A stretch of 42,972 nucleotides of DNA from a virus: IMG/VR virus record IMGVR_UViG_3300047496_000100, positions 1 to 42,972 of that record; one strand, 5' to 3'. Within the stretch, counting starts at the first letter, position 1, and the number at the start of each line of letters is the position of its first letter. Positions 2,781-35,596 of this stretch are shown in pieces. Position numbers and translations under genes: made by a program. Below the pieces are notes generated by a model that saw only the letters and a program-made list of their open reading frames with translations, was not told the origin of the DNA and ran no database searches.

Positions 2781-4907
2781 TTAAACGTGGACTAGCTTCG
2801 CGTTGTTAAAGAGTGGGCGGAAGTATGTATCGAGGTCTTTCTTTAGTTGGCGTAGATCGTCCGCCGTGCGGATGCTCGGGTTGTTGATAGTGAGGTAGAC
2901 GTTATTGCCGCCGCGTCTGCTGCCGTTTGCGCTGTTCTCGGCTGATACTATTTCCTCGCCGCCGTGCAGGATTGCTGGTACCGCGGTGCCTCTTGGTGCG
3001 TTTACGAAACCGCCCGTCTCGAAGTGGGTGATGGCCGCGCCCGTCGATACGACGCTGCTTGCGGCTTTCGATATGACGCCTCCGACCGCTCCGAGGGCGC
3101 TCCCGACTGCTCCGAATCCGGTCTGTATCGGCTTACCGATTATCGCGAGCATACTGTTCCACGCGTCGATGACGCTCTGTATTTTGCTCGTTATCCAATC
3201 AAAAACGGCTCCGATTGAGTCCTCGATTGTTTTGCCGATGCTATCGAAGAATTCTTTTATACTGTTCCACGCGTCGGTCCATATCTGCACGATTTTTGCG
3301 AGGGCATCTTGCCAGCCGGGCACCATGTAGTTGAGGAATATCACGACGAGGCCAACGATGAAGTCTATCGCTACCTTTGTCGCGTTTTTAAGGTCTACCC
3401 ACATCGCTTTGAAGAATGCACTGACGGTGCTCCAGTTTTTCCACATCTCGTATGCGGCGAGACCGAGTAGAACGACTGCTGCTACGACTAGTAGTACTGG
3501 CGCGGCGGCTAGATCGAGGCCTGCGAATGCTGTGGCGAGGAATCCTATCACTGAGGTGATGCCTCCGACGACCTCGATGAGGAAGCCTATAGCCGTGGTG
3601 ATGGTGCCGATTATATAAATTACTGGTCCTAGGGCGGCGACGATCGCTAGCGCTATCGCTATGAAGTTGCGCATGCTCGGGCTGAGGCGGTCCCACCATG
3701 CGGCCATGGCTGAGACTGCCTGCGATACTTTTTGTAGGGCAGTTGCGAATAGCGGTAGCAGAGTACCGCCGATGTCGATGAGAGTCGCTTGCATTGAGCT
3801 TAGAGCTGCGTTGAGTTTGAATAGATTAGTCTCGTGTGTCGCTTCTACTTCTGCGGCAAAGTTGCCTGCGCTGGAGCCTATTTCGTCGTACTTATTTTTT
3901 AGACGGTCGATCTGTTGTGTGAGCGTCAGTATCGCCGCGCTCGTACGTCCGCCGCCGAATGCTGCAGATAGGGTAGCTGCCTGTTCGGTCGCGGTCTCGC
4001 CCGATGCCTGCAAGTGTGTATTTAAATCCTCTATCGCGGTGACGAGGCCGTTCGGTTGACGCATATCGTTCGCCAGCTGATACGCGCCGAGGCCGATGTC
4101 TGCGAGAGCTCCTTTCGCTTTCGCGGTCGGTGCGGCCATAAGCGAGAACGTCATGCGCAGGCGCGTGGCGCTTTCGTCGGCTCTCATGCCGTTGTCGGTG
4201 AGCGTTGCGAGCGCTGCGCCTACATCTTGGAGGGTTAGGCCGAAGTTTTTAGCCGCCGGTAGGATGCCGGTGCCGAGGGCGGCCGTCAGGTCGTCCATTT
4301 TCATATTGCCTGCCCCGATGGTCGCGTTCAGGATACCCATCGCCTGCTCGGCGCTCTGTGTGCCGCTTATTCCGGTAACCATAGCGGCCCCTAGGGCGTT
4401 CGTGACGCCCTCCATGTCGGCTAGGCCAACGTCTGCGCCCTCTGCGGATACTTTTAGGGCGTCCATGGCTGCTGATCCGCGTAGGCCTAGGGATTCGAGG
4501 TGAAAGAGGCCGTCTGCGAGGGCCTGCGGGCCTTGTCCGGTATCGCCGCTGCGGGCTAGGGCGAGGACGGCGGTGGTCATCTTTTGCACCTCTTGCGCGG
4601 ATGCGCCGGCTTGCGTTTGAATGAGTTGCATGCTCGCCTCGAACCTCATCGAGGTGTCGATGATTGTTTTCCCAAGAGCGACTATCGGTAGGGTAAGGCC
4701 TACAGTCATTCCTTGCCCCACTGATTGCATTTTCTGGCCTGCCGACATCACACTCTCGCCGAATGAGCTAATGCTCGAGCCGGCGCTTGATAGCGATGAG
4801 CCGACGCCTGAGGCGACTGCTTGTACTTTATCCTGCATGGCTTGGAGCGCGGCGCTCGCTTCGTCCTGCAGTTTTATTACGATGCTCAGTGTTTGGTCGG
4901 TGGGCAT
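2781..4907 (-). CDS. Tail tape measure protein
   Basis: 708 residues. It starts MPTDQTLSIVIKLQDEASAAL with a heptad-like helix, then has the alternating Ala/Gly/Leu-rich helical body of TP901-type tape measures, including a region resembling SVSAEGADVGLADMEGVTNALG. A strongly hydrophobic segment lies around residues 415-490 (FIAIALAIVAALGPVIYIIG and following), as expected of a protein that may line a channel during DNA entry. It is short for a tape measure; at about 0.15 nm per residue the tail would be roughly 100 nm (rule of thumb). It follows the frameshifted chaperone pair, the usual order in siphoviruses. Confidence 0.9.
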   Translation of the reverse strand: MPTDQTLSIVIKLQDEASAALQAMQDKVQAVASGVGSSLSSAGSSISSFGESVMSAGQKMQSVGQGMTVGLTLPIVALGKTIIDTSMRFEASMQLIQTQAGASAQEVQKMTTAVLALARSGDTGQGPQALADGLFHLESLGLRGSAAMDALKVSAEGADVGLADMEGVTNALGAAMVTGISGTQSAEQAMGILNATIGAGNMKMDDLTAALGTGILPAAKNFGLTLQDVGAALATLTDNGMRADESATRLRMTFSLMAAPTAKAKGALADIGLGAYQLANDMRQPNGLVTAIEDLNTHLQASGETATEQAATLSAAFGGGRTSAAILTLTQQIDRLKNKYDEIGSSAGNFAAEVEATHETNLFKLNAALSSMQATLIDIGGTLLPLFATALQKVSQAVSAMAAWWDRLSPSMRNFIAIALAIVAALGPVIYIIGTITTAIGFLIEVVGGITSVIGFLATAFAGLDLAAAPVLLVVAAVVLLGLAAYEMWKNWSTVSAFFKAMWVDLKNATKVAIDFIVGLVVIFLNYMVPGWQDALAKIVQIWTDAWNSIKEFFDSIGKTIEDSIGAVFDWITSKIQSVIDAWNSMLAIIGKPIQTGFGAVGSALGAVGGVISKAASSVVSTGAAITHFETGGFVNAPRGTAVPAILHGGEEIVSAENSANGSRRGGNNVYLTINNPSIRTADDLRQLKKDLDTYFRPLFNNAKLVHV

Positions 4908-8974: not shown

Positions 8975-8983
8975 ATTATAACA
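8975..8983 (-). promoter_or_regulatory. Candidate extended -10 promoter before the connector gene
   Basis: The minus strand reads TGTTATAAT, an extended -10 (TGn plus perfect TATAAT). No -35 hexamer is visible. A start about 7 bases downstream would leave only about 4 bases before the ATG at 8964. It overlaps the stop codon of the repeat-protein gene, so a chance match in A/T-rich stop-codon sequence is possible. Confidence 0.35.
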
Positions 8984-10604
8984 CCACGCGCGTCGGCGCT
9001 GCGGTCGTTAGGGTGGATAGTGGCTTGGTGCTGGTCTCGGCTATGCTCGGGCCTCGGGTCCCGACGTCGAGCGTATCTTTCGAGAAGGTCTGCGTTTGCA
9101 GGATTTGCAGGCGCGAGATGGTATCGAGGATGTATGGATACTTGCCCTGCGCTACTGGCGGGATGATGTGCGCCACGCCGGTGATCGTTTTTCTCGTCAA
9201 TACCAGAAGCGATGCCTTACCCGTTATCGTCTGGGTGCGGGTGTTTATAAGGCTCGCTTTGCCGGTGATGGTGCGTAGAACGGCCCCGGTCACGCGGGAA
9301 ACGCCGGTTATAGCCTGCTGGGTGGATCGCTGGATGCGTCCAATGCCTGTCAGCGTGGCGTTAGACGTTCGCTGGATGCGTCCAATGCCCGTAATGGTCT
9401 TGGTGGTCGTTGCGGTGATTCTCGCCACGCCTGTGGCCGTTTTAGCCGTTTTAGCCGTGATCCGCGCGATACCTGTCTGCGTTTTTGCCGTTGTTACCTG
9501 AATTCGGGCTAGTCCGGTGATGGTCTTGGCCGTCGTGGCTGTTACACGGGAAACGCCGGTCTCTGTGCGGATCGTCGTGGCCGTTATACGCGCCACGCCG
9601 GTCTCGGTCTTTGTCGTTTTCGCGGTTATCCGTGAAATACCCGTTATCGTTTTGGTGGTGGTGACTTGGATTCTCGCCACGCCAGTGATAGTTCGGAGTG
9701 TGGTGGCGGTGATGCGGGAGATGCCCGTTATCGTACGCAAGGTGATCGCCGTAATGCGGGCCACGCCGGTGATGGTCTTGGTGGCTAGGGTAGCTATAGA
9801 TGCCTTGCCAGTGATCGTCTGGCTCGCGCTTTTCTGTATGCGTGCAACGCCGGTTATCGTGCGAAGCGTGTTGTTTTTTATATTCGCTACTCCGGTAATG
9901 GTCTTGAGGGTGGTAGCCGTGATTCTGGCCACGCCAGTCTCGGTGCGTGTGGTGGTGATCTGAATGCGGGCCACACCAGTAATCGTTTTGAGAGTCGTTG
10001 CGGTGATCCGCGCGATGCCTGTGATCGTCTTTAGGGTGGTCGCTGTTATACGCGCGATGCCTGTGATGGTTCGAGCGGTTACTGCGGTAATGCGTGCTAT
10101 GCCGGTCTCCGTTTTCGCGGTAGAGACTTGGATGCGGGCCACACCTGTTTCTGTTTTTGATGTGGTTGCCGTCACTCGTGCGATACCTGTCTCGGTCTTA
10201 GTGGTGGTAGCGGTTATTCGGGAAACGCCGGTGGTGGTCTGTAGTGTCTTTGCGGTAATGCGGGAGATGCCGGTGATCGTCTTTGCGGTGCTTACTTGAA
10301 TTCTGGCCACGCCGGTTATAGTCCTCGTTGTCGTCACTTGGATACGAGCGACGCCGGTGGTGGTCTTGAGGGTAGTGGCAGTTATGCGCGATACGCCCGT
10401 GATGGTGCGCGGGGTAAGTGCAGTAACGCGGCTCACGCCCGTGATGGTCTTTCCTGTGACGAGACCTATGCGAGCGACGCCCGTTATCGTGCGTGTGGTA
10501 AGGAGGCCTATTCGGGCAACACCGGTTATCGTCTGTGTAGTGACGACGTTGCTGACGAGGCTCTTATTCTTGAAGTATGGCGCCCGGAGTTGGAAGAAGG
10601 ACAT
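8976..10604 (-). CDS. Structural protein with 33 tandem 14-residue repeats
   Basis: 542 residues: a 21-residue head (MSFFQLRAPYFKNKSLVSNVV, split here as MSFFQLRAPYF and KNKSLVSNVV), then 33 exact-length 14-residue repeats (residues 22-483), then a 59-residue tail containing YPYILDTISRLQILQ. The repeat consensus is T-x-[KR]-T-I-T-G-V-A-R-I-x-x-T; the Thr-Gly at repeat positions 6-7 is present in all 33 copies, and position 11 is always Ile, Val or Leu. No indels are seen. Alternating Thr and aliphatic residues with a fixed Gly suggest a beta-solenoid or beta-spiral shaft. It lies in the late block between the beta-rich proteins and the connector, so a virion fibre or head decoration is likely. 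Confidence 0.85.
   Translation of the reverse strand: MSFFQLRAPYFKNKSLVSNVVTTQTITGVARIGLLTTRTITGVARIGLVTGKTITGVSRVTALTPRTITGVSRITATTLKTTTGVARIQVTTTRTITGVARIQVSTAKTITGISRITAKTLQTTTGVSRITATTTKTETGIARVTATTSKTETGVARIQVSTAKTETGIARITAVTARTITGIARITATTLKTITGIARITATTLKTITGVARIQITTTRTETGVARITATTLKTITGVANIKNNTLRTITGVARIQKSASQTITGKASIATLATKTITGVARITAITLRTITGISRITATTLRTITGVARIQVTTTKTITGISRITAKTTKTETGVARITATTIRTETGVSRVTATTAKTITGLARIQVTTAKTQTGIARITAKTAKTATGVARITATTTKTITGIGRIQRTSNATLTGIGRIQRSTQQAITGVSRVTGAVLRTITGKASLINTRTQTITGKASLLVLTRKTITGVAHIIPPVAQGKYPYILDTISRLQILQTQTFSKDTLDVGTRGPSIAETSTKPLSTLTTAAPTRVVL
9156..10541 (-). repeat. Tandem 42-bp repeat, 33 copies
   Basis: DNA encoding the 33 repeats of 14 codons, 1386 bp with no frame-breaking change. 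The DNA copies have drifted at third positions while the protein pattern (fixed Thr-Gly, position 10 mostly Arg) is kept, so the array is under protein-level selection and is not a fresh assembly or slippage product. The antisense frames also look repetitive but are only mirror images of it. Confidence 0.95.
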
Positions 10605-16606: not shown

Positions 16607-17533
16607 CTAGGCTACCGCGTTCTGAATGAAGTAACCCGCTGCTGCTGCGATTATCTTCTGCACATAGTTGTCGTTGCCGATGCGGACGTAAGTACCCTCG
16701 CGGTCTTCATCGCGCCAGCGCTTCACGATGCGAGTCGAGTAGGTGAAGGTGACGCCCAGCGTGAGCATCTTAATCTTTACCTGCGGAGCGATGTAGGCGA
16801 CGATGCAGTGCTTGCCCCAGACGTACGCGAGGACGTCGGTCTGACCCTCGTGTGCGGTATTGCTGCCGGCTTCGCCGACGACAATCTTCTCGACTTGGAA
16901 GACGCGGGCCATGAGCTCAGCAGTGACGACACCGAGCTGGCTGTATTTGATGCGCTCGATAATTTGAGGGTGGTCCATCAAGATGTCGAAGACGACCTTG
17001 CTCATGATGATGGTGTTTGGGCGCTTGAAGGTGTTGGTGTGGATGGTGGTTCGTGCGAGGCGGATGTCACCTATCGGGTCGGAGTTGTTGTAATCAGACC
17101 ACTGGCTCGTACCCGAGAGCGTGGTGTTCTGTGTGAGGTTCGAGGTGCTCTGCAGGAGGTTAGCTGCATTCTGTTCGCGGTCGAGCATGAGCTTCTCCGT
17201 GACGGTCTCAGTCTCATCGACGAGCGGGTTGAGCGCTGCGTCTGCCTGATCCTGAATTTCGTCGGCGACGAATCCCTTGAGGGCGTGGTCGTCGCAGGCG
17301 AAGGTACCGCTCGGCGCTACGCCGAAGTCGATTTCATTCGCGGCCGAACCGGCTGCGCGGTTGGTCTTGTCGATGCGAAGGTTCGCTTTGTCGTAGATGT
17401 AGTACTTGCCGGTCTGCTTTGAAACTTTGACCATCGGGAGGACGAGGTCGGCGATAAAGGTGTCATTCGTGTACTTGATTGAGACGTTGCTCAACGCTGG
17501 GTCGACGACTACATCCTGTTGTACGAGTGCCAT
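16607..17533 (-). CDS. Major capsid protein (HK97 fold)
   Basis: 308 residues, preceded by a DUF2190 decoration gene and a Mu I-like protease/scaffold, the standard head order. It starts MALVQQDVVVDPALSNVSIK. FIADLVLPMVKVSKQTGKYY resembles the N-arm strand of HK97-type capsid proteins of the Mu and encapsulin-like branch. PNTIIMSKVVFDILMDHPQI and VVTAELMARVFQVEKIVVGE fit the A-domain, and RIVKRWRDEDREGTYVRIGN the final strand. The start at 17533 has AAACCACC ATGG. Confidence 0.85.
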   Translation of the reverse strand: MALVQQDVVVDPALSNVSIKYTNDTFIADLVLPMVKVSKQTGKYYIYDKANLRIDKTNRAAGSAANEIDFGVAPSGTFACDDHALKGFVADEIQDQADAALNPLVDETETVTEKLMLDREQNAANLLQSTSNLTQNTTLSGTSQWSDYNNSDPIGDIRLARTTIHTNTFKRPNTIIMSKVVFDILMDHPQIIERIKYSQLGVVTAELMARVFQVEKIVVGEAGSNTAHEGQTDVLAYVWGKHCIVAYIAPQVKIKMLTLGVTFTYSTRIVKRWRDEDREGTYVRIGNDNYVQKIIAAAAGYFIQNAVA

Positions 17534-17971: not shown

Positions 17972-18694
17972 TTACACTTTCTGCGCCTTGCGAGCTGACG
18001 GGAGTTCTGAGTCGTAGCGCTCTTCGAGGCCCTTGGTCTCCGACATTACCTGCTTGAGAGCGTCGGCGTAGCTCAGCTTGTCGTCGGCCTTCATCTTGGT
18101 GCTGATGAGAGCTTCGACTTCTGCGACGGCTGTGCCGTCTACCGTACCGTTGCCGCCGAGTTCTTTAAACGCTGCGGGGGCTGCGAGATCGGTGTTGATA
18201 AGGGCCGCGAACGCGAGGCGCTGCTCTGCGTCCAGCTTCTGCATGAAAGTGCGGAGTTTGTCCGTACTCTTTGGCAGGAACTTGCCGGCTGTATTGGTCT
18301 TTTCATTGAAAACGAGCGCGGTGACGGCGCCGTCGAGCTTCTTGGCCTCGAGCTCCTTGAAGGCTGCCGCGCCCTCGTTCGCTGCCTTTGTGAGAGCGGC
18401 GAATTCGAGCTTGCTGACCGTGACCTTGTTATCCGATGCCTCCACCTTGGCGGAGCCGTCGGCGTTGAGGCCCTTAGCTACGTTCTCTGCCTCGGTTGCA
18501 GCCTTTGCGTCTGCCGCCTCCTTAGCCTCGCGCGTTGCCTTCTCCTCGTCGGTCTCTGCCGGCTTGTCTGCGAGAACGGTCTCGTAGGCAGCGACCTTGT
18601 CCGCGGGGATTTCGGCCTTGTGCTCCTTAAGGAACGCTACCTCTTCTGCTGAGAGGCTGGAGACGTCCTTTGCGAGTAGTGTGTTGATGTCCAT
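17972..18694 (-). CDS. Nested scaffold protein (Mu Z-like internal start)
   Basis: An in-frame ATG at 18694 (MDINTLLAKDVSSLS) opens exactly where the protease domain ends, giving a 240-residue scaffold alone. Its upstream context, ATAACCAAAAAACC ATG, matches the Shine-Dalgarno-free ACC-ATG pattern used by many other starts here. Mu and related phages make the scaffold this way. Inference from position and analogy. Confidence 0.55.
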   Translation of the reverse strand: MDINTLLAKDVSSLSAEEVAFLKEHKAEIPADKVAAYETVLADKPAETDEEKATREAKEAADAKAATEAENVAKGLNADGSAKVEASDNKVTVSKLEFAALTKAANEGAAAFKELEAKKLDGAVTALVFNEKTNTAGKFLPKSTDKLRTFMQKLDAEQRLAFAALINTDLAAPAAFKELGGNGTVDGTAVAEVEALISTKMKADDKLSYADALKQVMSETKGLEERYDSELPSARKAQKV

Positions 18695-19252
18695 GGTTTT
18701 TTGGTTATCGGTGAATTTTTTAATTAGGCCCTTGTCTGAAAATACGACTGCTTCGAGCTCTTTGAAGTATGGGGACTTCGTTAGAGCGCCCCCGGTGAGG
18801 ACGTTGCGATAAATCTGATGGGTCTGCGGGTCCTCGTAGTCTCGATAGAATTCCGGCGAGAAGAATTTAAATTGCTTGTCGCTGAGCGTCTCACGCCCTA
18901 GCTCGTTCCATTCTACCACCGCCCAGAGACCTGTGTCACGGGTTTCCACAGCCGTTATCCACCCCTGTGCTGGAAGCTCCTCGAAGCCCTCGTGGCCTGC
19001 GGTGATGAAGACTCCCTTGCGGATTCCGGCGTTGAAGTTTTGCGCGAACTCTCTGATGTCTCCGGCGGTGATGAGGATTGGCCCGTAGAGATCGTGATCC
19101 CATTGACCGATCGGGATGACGTGAATGGTGTCAGGTATGCTGACGCTTCCGTCCTCTCCCGCGTCACCGTCCTCGTCGAACTCGAATTTAAATACCCCGA
19201 CGTGCTTGCCGTGGAGCTGTCGCTCTTGTGCTGCGGTGAGGGTTTTCTTCAT
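17972..19252 (-). CDS. Head maturation protease with scaffold (Mu I-like)
   Basis: 426 residues. Residues 40-170 match the Mu-like prophage I protein: HVIPIGQWDHDLYGPILITA, NAGIRKGVFITAGHEGFEEL PAQGW, KQFKFFSPEFYRDYEDPQ, VLTGGALTKSPYFKELEAVV. The protease cleaves scaffold and capsid N-arms during head maturation. The C-terminal 240 residues are the Glu/Ala/Lys-rich helical scaffold (SSLSAEEVAFLKEHKAEIPA, EEKATREAKEAADAKAATEA). This is the first gene of the late block, 45 bp after the TTGACA of a promoter at 19302. Confidence 0.8.
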   Translation of the reverse strand: MKKTLTAAQERQLHGKHVGVFKFEFDEDGDAGEDGSVSIPDTIHVIPIGQWDHDLYGPILITAGDIREFAQNFNAGIRKGVFITAGHEGFEELPAQGWITAVETRDTGLWAVVEWNELGRETLSDKQFKFFSPEFYRDYEDPQTHQIYRNVLTGGALTKSPYFKELEAVVFSDKGLIKKFTDNQKTMDINTLLAKDVSSLSAEEVAFLKEHKAEIPADKVAAYETVLADKPAETDEEKATREAKEAADAKAATEAENVAKGLNADGSAKVEASDNKVTVSKLEFAALTKAANEGAAAFKELEAKKLDGAVTALVFNEKTNTAGKFLPKSTDKLRTFMQKLDAEQRLAFAALINTDLAAPAAFKELGGNGTVDGTAVAEVEALISTKMKADDKLSYADALKQVMSETKGLEERYDSELPSARKAQKV

Positions 19253-19270: not shown

Positions 19271-19302
19271 ATTGTAACACCCCTTGAGGGTTTATCTGTC
19301 AA
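19271..19302 (-). promoter_or_regulatory. Candidate late promoter before the structural operon
   Basis: Minus strand has TTGACA at 19302-19297 and, downstream, TGTTACAAT (19279-19271), an extended -10 (TG, T, TACAAT). The TTGACA to TACAAT spacing is 20, long for sigma70. A similar GTGTTA[TC]-type element stands before other genes. The perfect 10-bp palindrome CTGTGCACAG (19308-19317) just upstream of the -35 could be an operator. Confidence 0.5.
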
Positions 19303-19332: not shown

Positions 19333-19395
19333 TGAAAGTGGAGGGATTCGAACCCTCGCGCTGATCGAGCGCCACCTGCCTCGCGGCTCACTTTC
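19333..19395 (-). ncRNA. Compact tRNA-like element (63 nt)
   Basis: The acceptor stem GAAAGTG/CACTTTC pairs perfectly (7 bp). The T arm GAGGG-TTCGAAT-CCCTC is canonical and the discriminator is A. Between them are a small D-like arm (CCGC/GTGG) and a 4-bp hairpin GCGC-TCGATCA-GCGC, with no variable loop, so the whole is 63 nt instead of about 73. The 7-base loop would place GAT (Ile) as anticodon but has C, not U, at position 33. No CCA is encoded. It starts one base after the tmRNA 3' end. It may be a processing or mimic element, a non-canonical tRNA or a decayed one. Confidence 0.6.
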
Positions 19396-19396
19396 G

Positions 19397-19773
19397 TGGA
19401 TCAGGCGGGAATCGAACCCGCGTCCTCGTCGCTATCGACATCGCTTTCTACATGCTTAGTGACCAGAGTGAGCTGGCCGCACCTCGAGTGTTTGGGTTCG
19501 TGTTACCTCCACCACGTCGCGTGTGTGCCTTGGCGCTGCGACGATCTGCGCGTGACCTGTTTATTACGCAGTCGAGTACCCGGTGGCCCGGCGCTCGAGC
19601 ACGGCTAGGCGAGAACGAGGTCGCGCCCGGCAAGTACGTCCTTCACCGAGGCGAAGTACGGACTCTGTACTGCTTTTGTGGCATGTACGGTTTGCCGGCT
19701 AGGTTAAAGCGTAGCCGACGATGCTTGCATGCTTGCGGTGTCAAAGAGCGGGAGTCAAGACCATGTCTGACCC
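19397..19773 (-). ncRNA. ssrA: tmRNA (transfer-messenger RNA)
   Basis: 377 nt. The 5' GGGTCAG pairs with the 3' CTGATCC (7 bp, one G-U), followed by A73. The T arm GCGGG-TTCGATT-CCCGC is preceded by GAGGAC as in bacterial tmRNA, and the hallmark CTAAGCATGTAG lies upstream of it (19455-19444). A tag frame can be read from GCA at 19673 to TAG at 19605: 22 residues starting AVQSPYFASV and ending GRDLVLA. The resume codon is about nt 101, near the usual place, and the tag ends in small hydrophobic residues as degradation tags do. tmRNA rescues stalled ribosomes by adding this tag. The exact resume codon is inferred. No CCA is encoded. It follows the tRNA-Met with one base between. Confidence 0.9.
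19605..19673 (-). other. Proposed tmRNA tag reading frame
   Basis: Starting at GCA after ACAAAA and ending at TAG, this frame encodes 22 residues: AVQSPYFASV, KDVLA, then GRDLVLA. The other two frames end RTSPR or run much longer, so this one fits a tag best. It is longer than the usual 8-15 residue tags. Confidence 0.55.
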
Positions 19774-19774
19774 G

Positions 19775-19847
19775 TTGCGGAGAGCGGAATCGAACCGCTT
19801 GGCTACTGCTTATGAGGCAGCCGAGGTCACCATGCCTCTCCTCCACT
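19775..19847 (-). tRNA. tRNA-Met (CAT), initiator-like
   Basis: 73 nt: acceptor AGTGGAG/CTCCGCA, D arm GAGG-CATGGTGA-CCTC, anticodon arm GCTGC-CTCATAA-GCAGT, T arm AGCGG-TTCGATT-CCGCT, discriminator A. The anticodon is CAT. Position 1 (A) and 72 (A) cannot pair, and the D stem has A11:U24. Both are hallmarks of bacterial initiator tRNA; the 3' CTCCGCA-A also resembles E. coli tRNA-fMet. The three G:C pairs usual in the initiator anticodon stem are absent. No CCA is encoded. It sits one base before the tmRNA, after a terminator. Confidence 0.85.
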
Positions 19848-19861
19848 CCTGCTAGTGTATC

Positions 19862-19892
19862 AAAAAATCCACCCGCGGCGAAGCGCGAGTGG
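19862..19892 (-). terminator. Rho-independent terminator
   Basis: On the minus strand CCACTCGCG pairs with CGCGGGTGG (9 bp, one G-T) around a CTTCGC loop, followed by ATTTTTT. It lies after the two Shine-Dalgarno-led small genes and before the tRNA-Met/tmRNA cassette, so the cassette would need read-through or its own promoter. Confidence 0.85.
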
Positions 19893-20502: not shown

Positions 20503-20652
20503 TTATTCCTCGCCCGGGTTTCCCTCCCACATTTTTATGATGACGTGCCCCCCGATGATTAAGAAGTTGGCAGTGAACGCGCCGAAGATAAAACCTCCGA
20601 GGATGGAGAAGCCAGCAAGTAGGTCGTGGGGCGTAAAGTAGATTGGGTTCAC
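20503..20652 (-). CDS. Small membrane protein coupled to the portal gene
   Basis: 49 residues, start GTG at 20652, overlapping the portal gene TGA (GTGA, four bases), which suggests coupled translation. NPIYFTPHDLLAGFSILGG then FIFGAFTANFLIIGGHVIIK contains one long hydrophobic segment, followed by WEGNPGEE. Stop TAA at 20503, directly before the terminator. Function unknown; it may be a small inner-membrane protein. Confidence 0.7.
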   Translation of the reverse strand: MNPIYFTPHDLLAGFSILGGFIFGAFTANFLIIGGHVIIKMWEGNPGEE

Positions 20653-23102
20653 TTTTTCTTCGTTGCCTTGTCTGCCTCGCGCTGTTTGACGTACTCTGCT
20701 GCGGGTGTGCCCGGACGGGTGATTGCTTTTGGCGGCTGGATGAGGTCGTTCGGTGTGCCGCCGTAGTAGTCGCCGATTTGGTCGGGCACTCCGGTTATTT
20801 CTATATCCTCGACGTCCTGCTCGTCGGTCAGAATCTCCACCCAGATGCCGCGGCAGTTTTCGTGAAAGACATCCGTTGCTGCCCAGTCATCGGTCGGTAG
20901 CACTGTCAGGCCATCCATCGAAAGGCAGAATTCGCAGGTGCGCTCGTCGAGTACTTCGCTGCGCTGGAGGGCGTAGATCATGCTGCGGTTGCGCTGGAAG
21001 ACGTCATTGCGTCCGCCGTTTAGATTCTGGCTGATGATGATGCCTGCGGTATGCTGCACGGCTTTGTCGATTGCGTCGTCTAGGGTCGCGTCTACTGCGC
21101 CTACGGCTTGCAAGATGCTCGTGTCTTGCTTTAGGTGGTTGGTCGTTTCTATCTTTGCTTTGCTCTCGAGGTCGCTGGCGGTCTTGTTAGCGATGGTGTC
21201 GGCCATCAAATCTATCTCCGCCAAGGAGTCGGCGCTGTTCGGCGGGACGCTCACGCCCATCTCGGTGCTGACGTTATTCTTGCCGTACTCGTATGCCTTT
21301 TTCATAGCCTCTTTCAGGAGATCCTTGTAGTCGCTCACGAATTTAATCTCGAGGTCGGCGATGGCTTTGGTGTCGCCGGCGTCGGCTGCGGCATGGAGCT
21401 TTGCCATGAATGCGTCCTTGGCGCTTTGTAGCAGGGCGGTTGCGTCTGCAGTAAATCCGGCCTCCATCTCGTCGATGGTCTGCTGTATCTTGGCCCAGTT
21501 CACTTTACCCTCGGCGAATGTGAGCGGGCGCCAGCTCATAAATCCTTTGCCGTCGGTGAATGTGCGCTTGAGCGCGACGCCGGTGTGGTCGTGTGCTTTA
21601 GCTGGCTTCTTTTTTTTTGCTGTGGCTTTGTCGGTTTTCTTCTTCTGCGCGGCGGTCGGGGCTGGCTTTGCGGCTTTGCCGGCTGCGTCCTCTACTGGTC
21701 CCTCCGGTGCGGCCTCGCCGTCTTCCTCTATGTTCGCATGGTCTAGCTGCTCCTCGCTGCTCGGGTCCTGCTCTGCTGCGGCGTCTATATCGTCTTGTGA
21801 GCGCGGTGGGAGGCCCATAGAGGCTCTGAGGTACTGCTGGTCGTCGTCGGTCGGTGTGATGGCTCCTGCGGTCACTAGCTGGCTGTACGCCGTGCCGAGG
21901 GCGGTGACGTCTGCTTTGATGATGCCGCCGAAGTCGAGTACCGGGTAGACCGTTACGTTGTCGAAGTTCATATCGACGAGCTCGGGTATCAGGTTTTTAT
22001 TTATTTCCGCGATGAGGTTGTTAGCGATCGCCTCTAGGGCCTTGAGGAAGAGGTCGCTATGGTCCTGCGATAGTGCGCGGCTGCCGCTGTTGCTCTTGGT
22101 CTGGCCTAGCTCGAGGAATTGCGCGAGGACGCTCTGTAGGATTTCTTTGTTGTGATGGTTGATGCTGTTGTTCGGATCGCGTGTTGTGTGTGCGCCCATG
22201 TTGGCGAATTCGAAGGTATAGCCCGGCGGCTTTACTAGATAGCCTGCTTCGTTCGCGCGGAGGTTTTCCATCGCGGTCGCGGCTTTCTTCTCGTCGCTCT
22301 CGGTGTACCCTTGCGGCATTGAAATTACTGGTATGCCCAGACCTTGGCGCTCGAAGGCTACCGCGTCTATCTTGTAGAAATTGTTTTTATAGTACCAGTG
22401 CTTATAGGCTGCGCGGAGCATCGAGGTGCCCCACCAGTTGTCGCCCTCGCGCTCGTTTACGAAAATGAGGAGCTTACTGCCCGGTATCTGGGCTAGTATG
22501 CCGTCCTGTCTGATCTGCTGGATGCCGAAGGTGCCGTCGGTGAGTTCCCACATTAAAATCGACTTTGGCAGGCGTGGCGCTAGTTTCTTTAGTGTCACGT
22601 ACGTCTTGCCCTCGTGGTCTTTGGTGCCGTACACCTTTTCGAATAGCATCACGCCGAAGCTCACCGAGAGGAGTGCTTGTCTGATGACGTCATCCCAGCT
22701 CATATCCTCGAGCCAGTCGAAGAGTGCGTGCTCGACGAAGTTGGCGATGTCCTTACTCTCTTGATCGTCTGTTGCGGGGTTCACGAACCATTCCGCGCGG
22801 CGTATCGGTAGCGTGCAGGCGAGGATGGCTGCGCGGACGGTGCCGTCGCTCTTGCGCATCTCGTCGAATATCTTGATGCCCTCTATGCCTTGGAGCTGGC
22901 TGTTGTATTCCTCGGTGATGATGCCGTGGAGGAGGCGGGTACCGCTATCTCCTAGCTCTGCGCGTGGCGTGCTCGATCTTAGTGGTCGGCTCGGCAGGGT
23001 TGGCTGCAGGTTCTTCTGTACGCCGCTCGCGCCGGGTAGCAATGGGTTTGCCGCTGCTATCGGTGTGCGCTTGACGTTGATGTCGAATCCGAGGATTTTC
23101 AT
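20649..23102 (-). CDS. Portal protein fused to Mu F-like minor head domain
   Basis: 817 residues. Residues about 50-450 match Mu gp29-type (DUF935) portals: HGIITEEYNSQLQGIEGIKI, CTLPIRRAEWFVNPATDD, SFGVMLFEKVYGT, NWWGTSMLRAAYKHWYYKNN. A Lys/Ala/Pro-rich linker follows (AQKKKTDKATAKKKKPAKAH). The last 300 residues are a Mu F/SPP1 gp7-like head morphogenesis domain, with RSEVLDERTCEFCLSMDG and VFHENCRGIWVEIL near residues 715-755, whose Cys residues probably bind zinc. In Mu these are separate genes. The portal is the DNA entry ring, and the F-like domain is an internal head protein. It follows the terminase gene by 13 bp. Confidence 0.85.
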   Translation of the reverse strand: MKILGFDINVKRTPIAAANPLLPGASGVQKNLQPTLPSRPLRSSTPRAELGDSGTRLLHGIITEEYNSQLQGIEGIKIFDEMRKSDGTVRAAILACTLPIRRAEWFVNPATDDQESKDIANFVEHALFDWLEDMSWDDVIRQALLSVSFGVMLFEKVYGTKDHEGKTYVTLKKLAPRLPKSILMWELTDGTFGIQQIRQDGILAQIPGSKLLIFVNEREGDNWWGTSMLRAAYKHWYYKNNFYKIDAVAFERQGLGIPVISMPQGYTESDEKKAATAMENLRANEAGYLVKPPGYTFEFANMGAHTTRDPNNSINHHNKEILQSVLAQFLELGQTKSNSGSRALSQDHSDLFLKALEAIANNLIAEINKNLIPELVDMNFDNVTVYPVLDFGGIIKADVTALGTAYSQLVTAGAITPTDDDQQYLRASMGLPPRSQDDIDAAAEQDPSSEEQLDHANIEEDGEAAPEGPVEDAAGKAAKPAPTAAQKKKTDKATAKKKKPAKAHDHTGVALKRTFTDGKGFMSWRPLTFAEGKVNWAKIQQTIDEMEAGFTADATALLQSAKDAFMAKLHAAADAGDTKAIADLEIKFVSDYKDLLKEAMKKAYEYGKNNVSTEMGVSVPPNSADSLAEIDLMADTIANKTASDLESKAKIETTNHLKQDTSILQAVGAVDATLDDAIDKAVQHTAGIIISQNLNGGRNDVFQRNRSMIYALQRSEVLDERTCEFCLSMDGLTVLPTDDWAATDVFHENCRGIWVEILTDEQDVEDIEITGVPDQIGDYYGGTPNDLIQPPKAITRPGTPAAEYVKQREADKATKKK

Positions 23103-33520: not shown

Positions 33521-35596
33521 TTATTCTGTTAGGAAACCTTGTAAGCGCACCTGTCCGCCCCCGGGGTGGCTGAATATCATGTCGCCCTTGCCGGAGAGCT
33601 TCTCGGCGCCCTCGGTGCCGAGGATCACCTTGCTGTCGGTCGCGCTGGCGGTCGTGAGGGCGATGCGGGTAGGGAAGTTCGCCTTGATGAGGCCGGTGAT
33701 GACGTCCACGCTCGGGCGCTGCGTCGCGATGATGAGGTGGATGCCGACGGCTCGGGCCATCTGTGCGAGGCGTGTGAGCATCTCCTCTGCGGTCGCCGTC
33801 TCCTCGTCCGGCTCCGGCGGTACGAATGTCAGGCCCTGCTTCGCTGCCTGTCGGGCCATCGCTTCTACCTTGGCTCGCGTCACGATGTTCTCGAGCGACT
33901 GCTTGCTCTTTTTCTTGCGCTCCGCGGCCTTGCCTTGGAGTATCAGGTCGGCGAATTCGTCGACGACGGCGACGATGTAGGGGAGGCTGGTCGAGCCTTT
34001 TTTGTTGTATGCCGTGATGTCGCGCACACGCTTGCCCTCGAGGAGCTTGTAGCGCACTTCCATCTCGTCTATGAGGCCTTTGAGCGTGAGGACGCTGTCG
34101 GCGTAGTCGTAGGCGATCTTGCGCCCGTGGAGGTGCTTCGCTTTTGCGAATGCTACCAGCTCGACGCGCTTCGGGTCGATAAGGATTAGGTGCATCTGCT
34201 CCGGCGTCATCTGCTTGGTGAGCGCGTGGAGGAGCGTATGTATCAGCTCGCTCTTGCCGCTGCCGGTGGCGCCGGCTATGAGGAGGTGCGGCATGTCGGG
34301 TAGTGCGACGCGCACGGTGTCGCCGTTTACGTCCTTGCCTATTGGGAGGCCCAGCGTCCCGGGGCGCAGTTCCTCCTTGGTGAATTTCACCACGCCGCGC
34401 TCGTCGTTCGCTACCTCTATGCCGACGAGCGACGTTCCGGGTATCGGGGCCAGTATTCGCACCTCGCCCTTGGCTTCGAGCGCAAGGGCTATATCTGCCT
34501 TGTGCTTATCGAAGACGCTCATGCGTACCCCGCGGCTCACCTTGAAGCGGTACTGCGTCACGCTGGTGCCTTTCACGCTCTCCTGCGGCTCTACGGGGAT
34601 GCCGAACTCGGCGAGGCGGAGCTTTATCTTCTCCTCGGGGTTGAGGTGTCGGTTCTCGATGTTGTCGAGGCGCGAGCTGACGAAGCGCTTGTTGACGAAG
34701 GCGATGTCTTTTACTTTGTGCATCACCTCGACGTCGCTCATGTCCGCGGAGAGAAGGCCTTGCGCGTAGAGCTCGCCGGCGATCTCGCCATCGAATGGGT
34801 CGCTGAGGTTTGGGAGGTACACGGCGTCGGGGTTGCTGAGGAACTTCACTACGTCGCGGTAGAGGTTGTAGAAAATGATGCGGTACTGCTCGTGACTGAA
34901 AGGTATCGCGTAGTCGCGAATTTGGGGCTGCCCTGCGTTTGGCCCGGTGTTCTCGGAGGTCTTTATCTCTCTGAATAGCATGCGGTCTGCCGTGATGCCT
35001 TTTGCGGCTCTGAGGAGGTGCCAGAGGAATTGGCTCTGAATTATTTTGATGTAGTCCTCGCTCTCCCAGTCGGTGAAGCTGGTCACGAACTTGGTGTCGA
35101 TTATTTCAACGGCGCCGTCGGTGCGCTTGTGGACGAGGTCGGGGACGGCGACTGCTGGAAGCGGAAGTTGCTGGCCGTCGACGGTCTTTAGCTCGGCCTG
35201 CATCTTTTCTTCCACCATCAGTATCTCGTTATATTCCGGCTCCTCGGCGAAGTAGAAGCGCATGGTCTGCGCGTACTTCTTGAGCATGGCCTCGCGGTTG
35301 CCGGTCTTGCCGTAGTTAATGTAGCTGTCGTCGTAATTGTCGAGGTACTCTTGGCCGACGCGGATCGCGTTCGCGATATTCTCTGCGCGGTCGGTGCCCA
35401 TTGGTACGCTATCGTTGCCGCCGTAGTACGCTTTGAGCGCTTCGTGGCCCGCGCGTCCGACCATTCCGCTCACGCCCATCTTGCCGTCGTAGACGCCGAG
35501 GATGTATTTGAGCTTGAAGATGAGCGGGTTGCGGAGCAGCTGCGTGAGCATGCTGTAGTGCAGCCGGTCGATTGGAATGAATGCTTGTTTTTCCAT
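33521..35596 (-). CDS. RecB-family nuclease fused to FtsK-type DNA translocase
   Basis: 691 residues. N-terminus: RecB/Cas4-like PD-(D/E)XK nuclease with GRAGHEALKAYY (H51), VAVPDLVHK (D153), EIIDTKF (D167, K169) and Q187/Q189 in IIQSQFLWHLL. C-terminus (about 335-691): FtsK cytoplasmic motor, with alpha-domain YRFKVSRGVRMSVFDKHKAD and VRILAPIPGTSLVGIEVAND, Walker A GATGSGKS (442-449), Walker B VVDEFADL (544-551), ATQRPSVDVITGLIKANFPT. A charged insertion of about 50 residues follows Walker B (about 552-605). The FtsK gamma domain is missing. It probably tracks along and trims double-stranded DNA, feeding RecT. A promoter with perfect TTGACA lies 30-58 bp upstream. Confidence 0.9.
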   Translation of the reverse strand: MEKQAFIPIDRLHYSMLTQLLRNPLIFKLKYILGVYDGKMGVSGMVGRAGHEALKAYYGGNDSVPMGTDRAENIANAIRVGQEYLDNYDDSYINYGKTGNREAMLKKYAQTMRFYFAEEPEYNEILMVEEKMQAELKTVDGQQLPLPAVAVPDLVHKRTDGAVEIIDTKFVTSFTDWESEDYIKIIQSQFLWHLLRAAKGITADRMLFREIKTSENTGPNAGQPQIRDYAIPFSHEQYRIIFYNLYRDVVKFLSNPDAVYLPNLSDPFDGEIAGELYAQGLLSADMSDVEVMHKVKDIAFVNKRFVSSRLDNIENRHLNPEEKIKLRLAEFGIPVEPQESVKGTSVTQYRFKVSRGVRMSVFDKHKADIALALEAKGEVRILAPIPGTSLVGIEVANDERGVVKFTKEELRPGTLGLPIGKDVNGDTVRVALPDMPHLLIAGATGSGKSELIHTLLHALTKQMTPEQMHLILIDPKRVELVAFAKAKHLHGRKIAYDYADSVLTLKGLIDEMEVRYKLLEGKRVRDITAYNKKGSTSLPYIVAVVDEFADLILQGKAAERKKKSKQSLENIVTRAKVEAMARQAAKQGLTFVPPEPDEETATAEEMLTRLAQMARAVGIHLIIATQRPSVDVITGLIKANFPTRIALTTASATDSKVILGTEGAEKLSGKGDMIFSHPGGGQVRLQGFLTE

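Follow-up and report, generated by a model that had tools for sequence, protein, structure and literature searches.

A tmRNA is carried by 402 of 18,146 phage genomes (PMC9004378), in line with an earlier note on the DNA studied here, made from its letters, which called phages with tRNAs or a tmRNA known. Those of mycobacteriophages Bxz1 and Wildcat, Bacillus phage G and others are one-piece molecules with a tag frame that often lie inside tRNA clusters; the tmRNA of the OM43 phage Melnitz is two-piece, unlike the one-piece tmRNA described here. The phage tmRNAs that we inspected belong to tRNA-rich genomes of 78–164 kb, in which the next tRNA lies tens of bases off, whereas the present phage has a genome of 43 kb, a single tRNA and 1-nt spacing. 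For bacterial initiator tRNA, the major features are a 1x72 mismatch and the 3GC pairs of the anticodon stem, while G2:C71, C3:G70 and A11:U24 aid formylation (PMC7949028). The best phage match to the tRNA of our locus is the tRNA-Met of Sinorhizobium phage phiM12 (KF381361; 78% over 59 nt), which has an identical UGC/GCA anticodon stem and a weak 1:72 pair but, unlike the tRNA of our locus, has an encoded CCA and comes from a 195-kb phage in which no tmRNA adjoins it. Finally, mycobacteriophage DS6A has a TLD-only tmRNA of about 65 nt, which the third RNA of our locus resembles in size, in having an acceptor and a T arm, and in having no coding part (PMC4131195, PMC11915505).

An RNA cassette between the portal and protease genes

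Because a 127-bp direct terminal repeat is shared by both ends, the window (the whole stretch of 42,972 bases analysed here, GC 0.57) is a complete phage genome. The phage is tailed and encodes a Mu-type portal protein (20649–23102, minus strand; Pfam Portal_Mu, 2e-53), a Mu-like protease/scaffold protein (17972–19252, minus strand; Pfam Mu-like_Pro, 1e-15), a capsid protein (16607–17533) and a tape measure (2781–4907). None of 50,697 named phage records has a match to its terminase, and viral contigs hold relatives with proteins 60–70% identical. Elsewhere in the genome, a 691-aa protein (33521–35596, minus strand) has an N-terminal phage exonuclease-like domain fused to FtsK alpha/motor domains, and a 542-aa protein (8976–10604, minus strand) is built of many short TxTITGVARIxxTT-like repeats.

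With the portal gene as upstream neighbour and the protease gene as downstream neighbour, three RNAs follow each other on the minus strand: a tRNA-Met (19775–19847), a tmRNA (19397–19773) and a 63-nt tRNA-like element (19333–19395). The earlier note had placed a phage cassette of three tandem RNAs with 1-base gaps here, and ARAGORN, Rfam and reading of the sequence agree with it to the base, as well as with the phage origin. The gaps are a single C at 19774, which would serve as C74, and a single C at 19396 (both minus strand); both junctions read A73-C-G1, and tRNA-Met and tmRNA are without encoded CCA.

A putative intrinsic terminator (9 bp, loop of 6, T-rich tail; 19869–19892, minus strand) would end the upstream transcript, and directly after its T run stands a candidate extended -10-like box, TGATACACT (19854–19862, minus strand). 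One relative, contig 3300025679_000012 (hereafter L022; the same sequence, L036, comes from another sample), has a portal protein about 60% identical to that of the window, an equivalent hairpin and T run at the same locus, and the box TGAGATAAT in the same place behind the terminator. The T run runs into TGA and the -10-like hexamer in both phages (TTTTTTGATACACT in the window, TTTTTTGAGATAAT in L022). A sigma-70 scan that required a -35 box gave no standard promoter before the cassette; transcription is predicted to start near 19847, at A1 of the tRNA or next to it. Because a terminator and then an extended -10-like box precede the RNAs in both phages, the cassette looks like a transcription unit of its own. 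A further extended -10-like box, TGTTACAAT (19271–19279, minus strand; TGYTATAAT in relatives), probably belongs to the capsid operon.

Conservation of the cassette is limited. Between portal and protease, the relatives L018–L021, L005, L006 and L024 have only a short spacer that contains a TGYTATAAT-type box and, in some, a small gene; the cassette is absent. L022 keeps the tmRNA, preceded by a 40-nt leader, without the tRNA-Met or the tRNA-like stub. We therefore rejected conservation of the trio as a unit: the tmRNA alone is shared, and by one lineage (L022/L036) of 18 related records. Right after the L022 tmRNA, where the window has its stub, lies a very stable hairpin (L022:13322–13409; z -3.6).

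The same 1-nt triple was searched for in other phages and viral contigs and was not found elsewhere, although a tmRNA and an initiator-type tRNA do share a viral contig in at least L246 (275 nt apart), L361 and L380 (1.1–1.6 kb). The pairing had been called unusual, a description that is right for the 1-nt triple and wrong for its parts: initiator tRNAs, tmRNAs and tmRNAs in tRNA clusters are ordinary in phages. Since phage start-type tRNAs and tmRNAs are fairly common, what is unusual is that the RNAs are packed one base apart, that a stub is present and that the tRNA has an altered anticodon stem.

The tmRNA, its tag and the host

ARAGORN reports the tmRNA at 19396–19773, and Rfam RF00023 matches 19394–19773 with 70.1 bits (gathering threshold 47; E 2e-25) over model positions 1–374 of 374, which upholds the identity that had been read from the letters. 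The canonical motif CTAAGCATGTAG (19459–19448) and the 7-bp acceptor (GGGTCAG/CTGATCC) pointed out earlier are in place. The molecule has a T arm and ends in ACG; its alanine identity (G3.U70 and A73) is the same in L022, where a positional homologue (L022:12959–13319, 52.8 bits) occurs in the order portal, tmRNA, protease. Read in this way, the window tmRNA looks real.

The tag is most likely AVQSPYFASVKDVLAGRDLVLA followed by a stop (19605–19673, minus strand); it begins at gene position 101 with the resume codon GCA. Its counterpart in L022 is AKSIASPYFSNAGSLRTPAFA at gene position 87, and CAAAA-GCA precedes and opens the frame in both phages; in a sample of 30 Patescibacteria genomes, tmRNA tags mostly start at 85–100. 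The frame common to window and L022 is A...SPYF.S..AG.....A, and the Ser codon of its SPYF block is AGT in one phage and TCT in the other, a difference that suggests selection on the tag peptide. This selection, the position of the frame after the first pseudoknot and its small hydrophobic end are modest evidence, taken from two sequences only. The tag proposed by ARAGORN, AGRDLVLA, was rejected; it starts late (143) and is the C-terminal part of the longer frame common to L022. A gene for SmpB is absent from both the window phage and L022.

Another part of the tmRNA, TGGTGGAGGTAACACGAACCCA (19487–19508, minus strand), has a near letter-for-letter match in the L022 tmRNA, and TGGTGGAGGTAACAYGAACCCA is common to these two otherwise diverged molecules (window 19487–19508 and L036:1786–1807). 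The shared block reads in L022/L036 as a Shine-Dalgarno sequence with ATG, opening a 26-codon frame. We considered it as a second reading frame and dropped it: L022 has GGAGGTAACATG but the start in the window is ACG, so the frame is unconserved. Used as a host marker, the block gave no matches in 84,980 genomes, and a pattern scan for further homologous tmRNAs gave chance matches only.

As for the host, the T loop of the L022 tmRNA, UGCAAAU, is a form seen in a Patescibacteria tmRNA (L151), and UGCGA or UGCAA T loops occur in seven Patescibacteria tmRNAs of the 30-genome sample, which comprised Patescibacteria only. UGC replaces UUC in the T loops of tmRNAs L135, L137, L139, L142, L145, L151 and L157 (Patescibacteria), in that of phage L022 and also in some Patescibacteria tRNAs; it is a possible host marker. 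Homologues of the window capsid occur in MAGs of many phyla, including Patescibacteria (L039, 46%), and host assignment via capsid homology was abandoned for this scatter. An 8.5-kb contig binned as Chthoniobacter (L037, JANXSB010000305.1) has a capsid gene 86% identical to that of the window and may be a mis-binned phage. Because of the T-loop form of L022 and the distant capsid homologues in Patescibacteria bins, a Patescibacteria host for the window phage is plausible.

The homologous tmRNA also bears on whether the cassette is no more than a set of passively captured host RNA genes that are decaying and functionless. Such decay would fit the relatives, most of which are without the cassette while L022 keeps the tmRNA only, and it would fit the G8/C14 of the tRNA and the third element without a normal anticodon arm. 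It sits poorly with a tmRNA and tag frame kept at one locus by two phages whose portal proteins are about 60% identical, with acceptor and T stems that are intact in all three RNAs, and with the cassette's own promoter-like box and terminator; we judge decay improbable.

A tRNA-Met with an initiator body and an altered anticodon stem

The first RNA of the cassette is called tRNA-Met(CAU) by ARAGORN (19774–19847) and matches Rfam RF00005 at 19775–19847 (minus strand) with 40.6 bits (gathering threshold 29). The A1xA72 mismatch and A11:U24, on which it had been named initiator-like, are both present, and the name holds for the body (1x72 mismatch, G2:C71, A11:U24) but fails at the anticodon stem, where 3GC is absent. 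With bacterial tRNA-fMet it shares these three body features, the CUCAUAA loop and A73; it differs in the anticodon stem (U29:A41, G30:C40 and C31:G39, that is UGC/GCA, versus GGG/CCC), in U3:G70 instead of C3:G70, and at positions 8/14, which are G/C instead of the usual U/A. The formylation-side determinants (PMC7949028) are thus retained except for C3:G70. The window tRNA is a hybrid, an initiator body with a non-initiator anticodon stem, and because the 3GC pairs and U8/A14 are missing, it could be a poor initiator.

A comparison set of 56 tRNA-CAU places these features. Purine 11:pyrimidine 24 is found in nearly all initiators and in none of the elongators, which have Y11:R24; the R11:Y24 tRNAs have a weak or mismatched 1:72 pair, and the AxA of the window recurs in the Patescibacteria initiator L169. 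Their stems are of the NGG type (at least NGG/CCN) in all but one, a minimum from which UGC/GCA of the window tRNA departs. The other exception is L126, a phage-like contig of a Peribacteraceae bin, where the tRNA lies beside a recombinase-like gene. There (L126:1470–2250), a row of degenerate tRNA-like elements, whose T loops are odd, comes after an initiator-body tRNA-Met with an AGC/GCU stem.

We then scanned genomes with a pattern that fixed the initiator D arm and anticodon loop and left the stem free. At least 120 viral-contig stretches with an initiator-type tRNA match it, which rules out the idea that an initiator tRNA is a rarity in phages. Among the matches listed, G31:C39 is kept in 63 of 80 cases in viral contigs and replaced in 17 (9 C:G, 3 U:G, 5 other) versus 2 of 211 in bacterial genomes (Fisher p 8e-9), in counts that include several copies per genome and, for viral contigs, prophages. 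One of the two bacterial exceptions itself sits in a prophage (CI-like repressor, DUF2303). By phylum, again among the matches listed, G31 is present in 148 of 150 tRNAs from the phylum of genome G022 (2 depart) and in all 61 from Patescibacteria, the phylum of G019 (0 depart). Initiator-body tRNA-CAU with an altered 31:39 pair, mostly C31:G39, are found in L189, L201, L211, L223, L233, L332 and others, and at L120:1985–2061. Phage initiator-type tRNAs are therefore common and mostly canonical, with a substantial minority in which the 31:39 pair is altered as in the window; the altered stem recurs in many phages and hardly in bacteria. A search of open-licence texts for altered 3GC stems in phage initiator tRNAs gave no paper on them.

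Such a stem may mean that the tRNA-Met has turned into an elongator or a dual-use tRNA: loss of 3GC would remove the P-site preference, and the molecule would mainly decode internal AUG and supplement the host pool. C31:G39 is unlike any of the 61 Patescibacteria initiators among the matches listed, in the 3GC mutant of E. coli tRNA-fMet these positions have the elongator sequence, and it is the formylation rate that decides between initiation and elongation for such tRNAs (PMC7949028). The window tRNA nevertheless retains A1xA72 and A11:U24, and the 39 viral R11:Y24 tRNAs among the matches listed have a 1:72 mismatch in 21 cases, A:U in 11 and G:C in 3, which disfavours use by EF-Tu. We regard an elongator role as rather unlikely.

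A different possible consequence of the stem concerns nucleases. In enteric bacteria, VapC cleaves tRNA-fMet at the bond joining A38 to C39 (PMC4105405), and phage tRNAs are known to carry changes at anticodon-nuclease sites (PMC10264068). In the window tRNA, G39 replaces C39 at exactly this bond, which suggests by analogy that it may survive host nucleases of the VapC type. Extended to the viral tRNAs at large, the tentative and still doubtful proposal is that the window tRNA belongs to a widespread class of phage initiator tRNAs, with the third 3GC pair flipped or lost (mostly to C31:G39) but the initiator features of acceptor and D arm retained, which evades VapC-type nucleases while a co-transcribed tmRNA clears the ribosomes that this defence stalls.

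The 63-nt element and the proposed function of the cassette

The third RNA (19333–19395, minus strand) has a 7-bp acceptor (GAAAGUG/CACUUUC), A73 and a canonical T arm, together with a 3-bp GCC(GCGA)GGC hairpin, a 5-bp GCGCU/AGCGC hairpin and no variable loop. It folds to -28.1 kcal/mol (z -2.5) and is the sole exact combination of 7-bp acceptor, 5-bp T stem and TTCRA loop in the 42,972 bases (mean of 40 shuffles, 0.025). The element departs from a canonical four-arm cloverleaf, with a 5-nt loop, or C33 if the anticodon is GAU, and ARAGORN called no tRNA at 19333–19395. Its GCC...GGC arm looks Ser/Leu-like, and a class-II tRNA is a possible origin of the element. All Rfam matches stay below threshold: the tmRNA model gives 13.7 bits, through the acceptor and T arm, and mascRNA 19.2 versus 42.5. 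mascRNA, from the 3' end of MALAT1, is tRNA-like as is the 63-nt element, but it is eukaryotic, and at this score we claim no homology. RNase P, by cutting 5' of mascRNA, generates the 3' end of the RNA that precedes it. A stub beside a tmRNA is seen again in mycobacteriophage Phabba, where a 66-nt 'tRNA-undetermined' (L117:2050–2115) lies 52 nt upstream of the phage tmRNA.

That the element fits the tmRNA model solely through its acceptor and T arm, and has no variable loop, raises the possibility of a TLD-only tmRNA decoy that titrates host SmpB, the cassette then blocking host trans-translation. DS6A encodes little beyond the tRNA-like domain of a tmRNA, and such molecules inhibit tmRNA (PMC4131195, PMC11915505). 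By description, the 63-nt element differs from the DS6A RNA in A3:U70, in place of G3.U70, and in its extra hairpins, the 3-bp one replacing the unpaired D-loop analogue; moreover, 13.7 bits is far under the threshold of 47, and the 63-mer would be a competitor of the phage's own tmRNA as well. A3:U70 in particular makes the decoy the weaker reading, and we think it quite unlikely.

Instead, we find it somewhat probable that the cassette maintains translation for the phage, with rescue by the tmRNA, a supplement of tRNA-Met, maturation by RNase P and CCA addition, and the stub as a cut signal. According to this translation-maintenance model, the three RNAs would be an insertion, with the portal gene on one side and the promoter of the capsid operon on the other, and would be transcribed independently. 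The phage tmRNA, with host SmpB and host alanyl-tRNA synthetase, would rescue ribosomes that stall on cleaved or broken mRNA in the course of infection, adding its own tag. The tRNA-Met, which keeps formylation determinants in its acceptor and D arm, would supplement the host initiator tRNA; that S. flexneri phages generally avoid encoding tRNA-fMet (PMC10264068) counts against this supplement.

Maturation would fall mainly to the host. Because the RNAs abut, each RNase P cut that makes the 5' end of one RNA would also give the 3' end of the RNA before it, to which a host enzyme would then add CCA. RNase P and the CCA enzyme recognise the acceptor/T-arm half, and the third element retains exactly this half; poor in anticodon features, it may serve mainly to signal the cut that frees the tmRNA at its 3' end.

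Taken together, as a model of punctuation by RNase P only, the cassette is very compact, and with it the range of phage tmRNA reaches down to a small phage of 43 kb, possibly one that infects Patescibacteria. If the nuclease-escape proposal is true, an altered 31:39 pair could let phage mRNAs start while host initiator tRNA is being cut. Altered-stem phage initiator tRNAs would then allow one to test directly what the 3GC pairs are there for, and whether these pairs turn into a liability when a defence cuts tRNAs.
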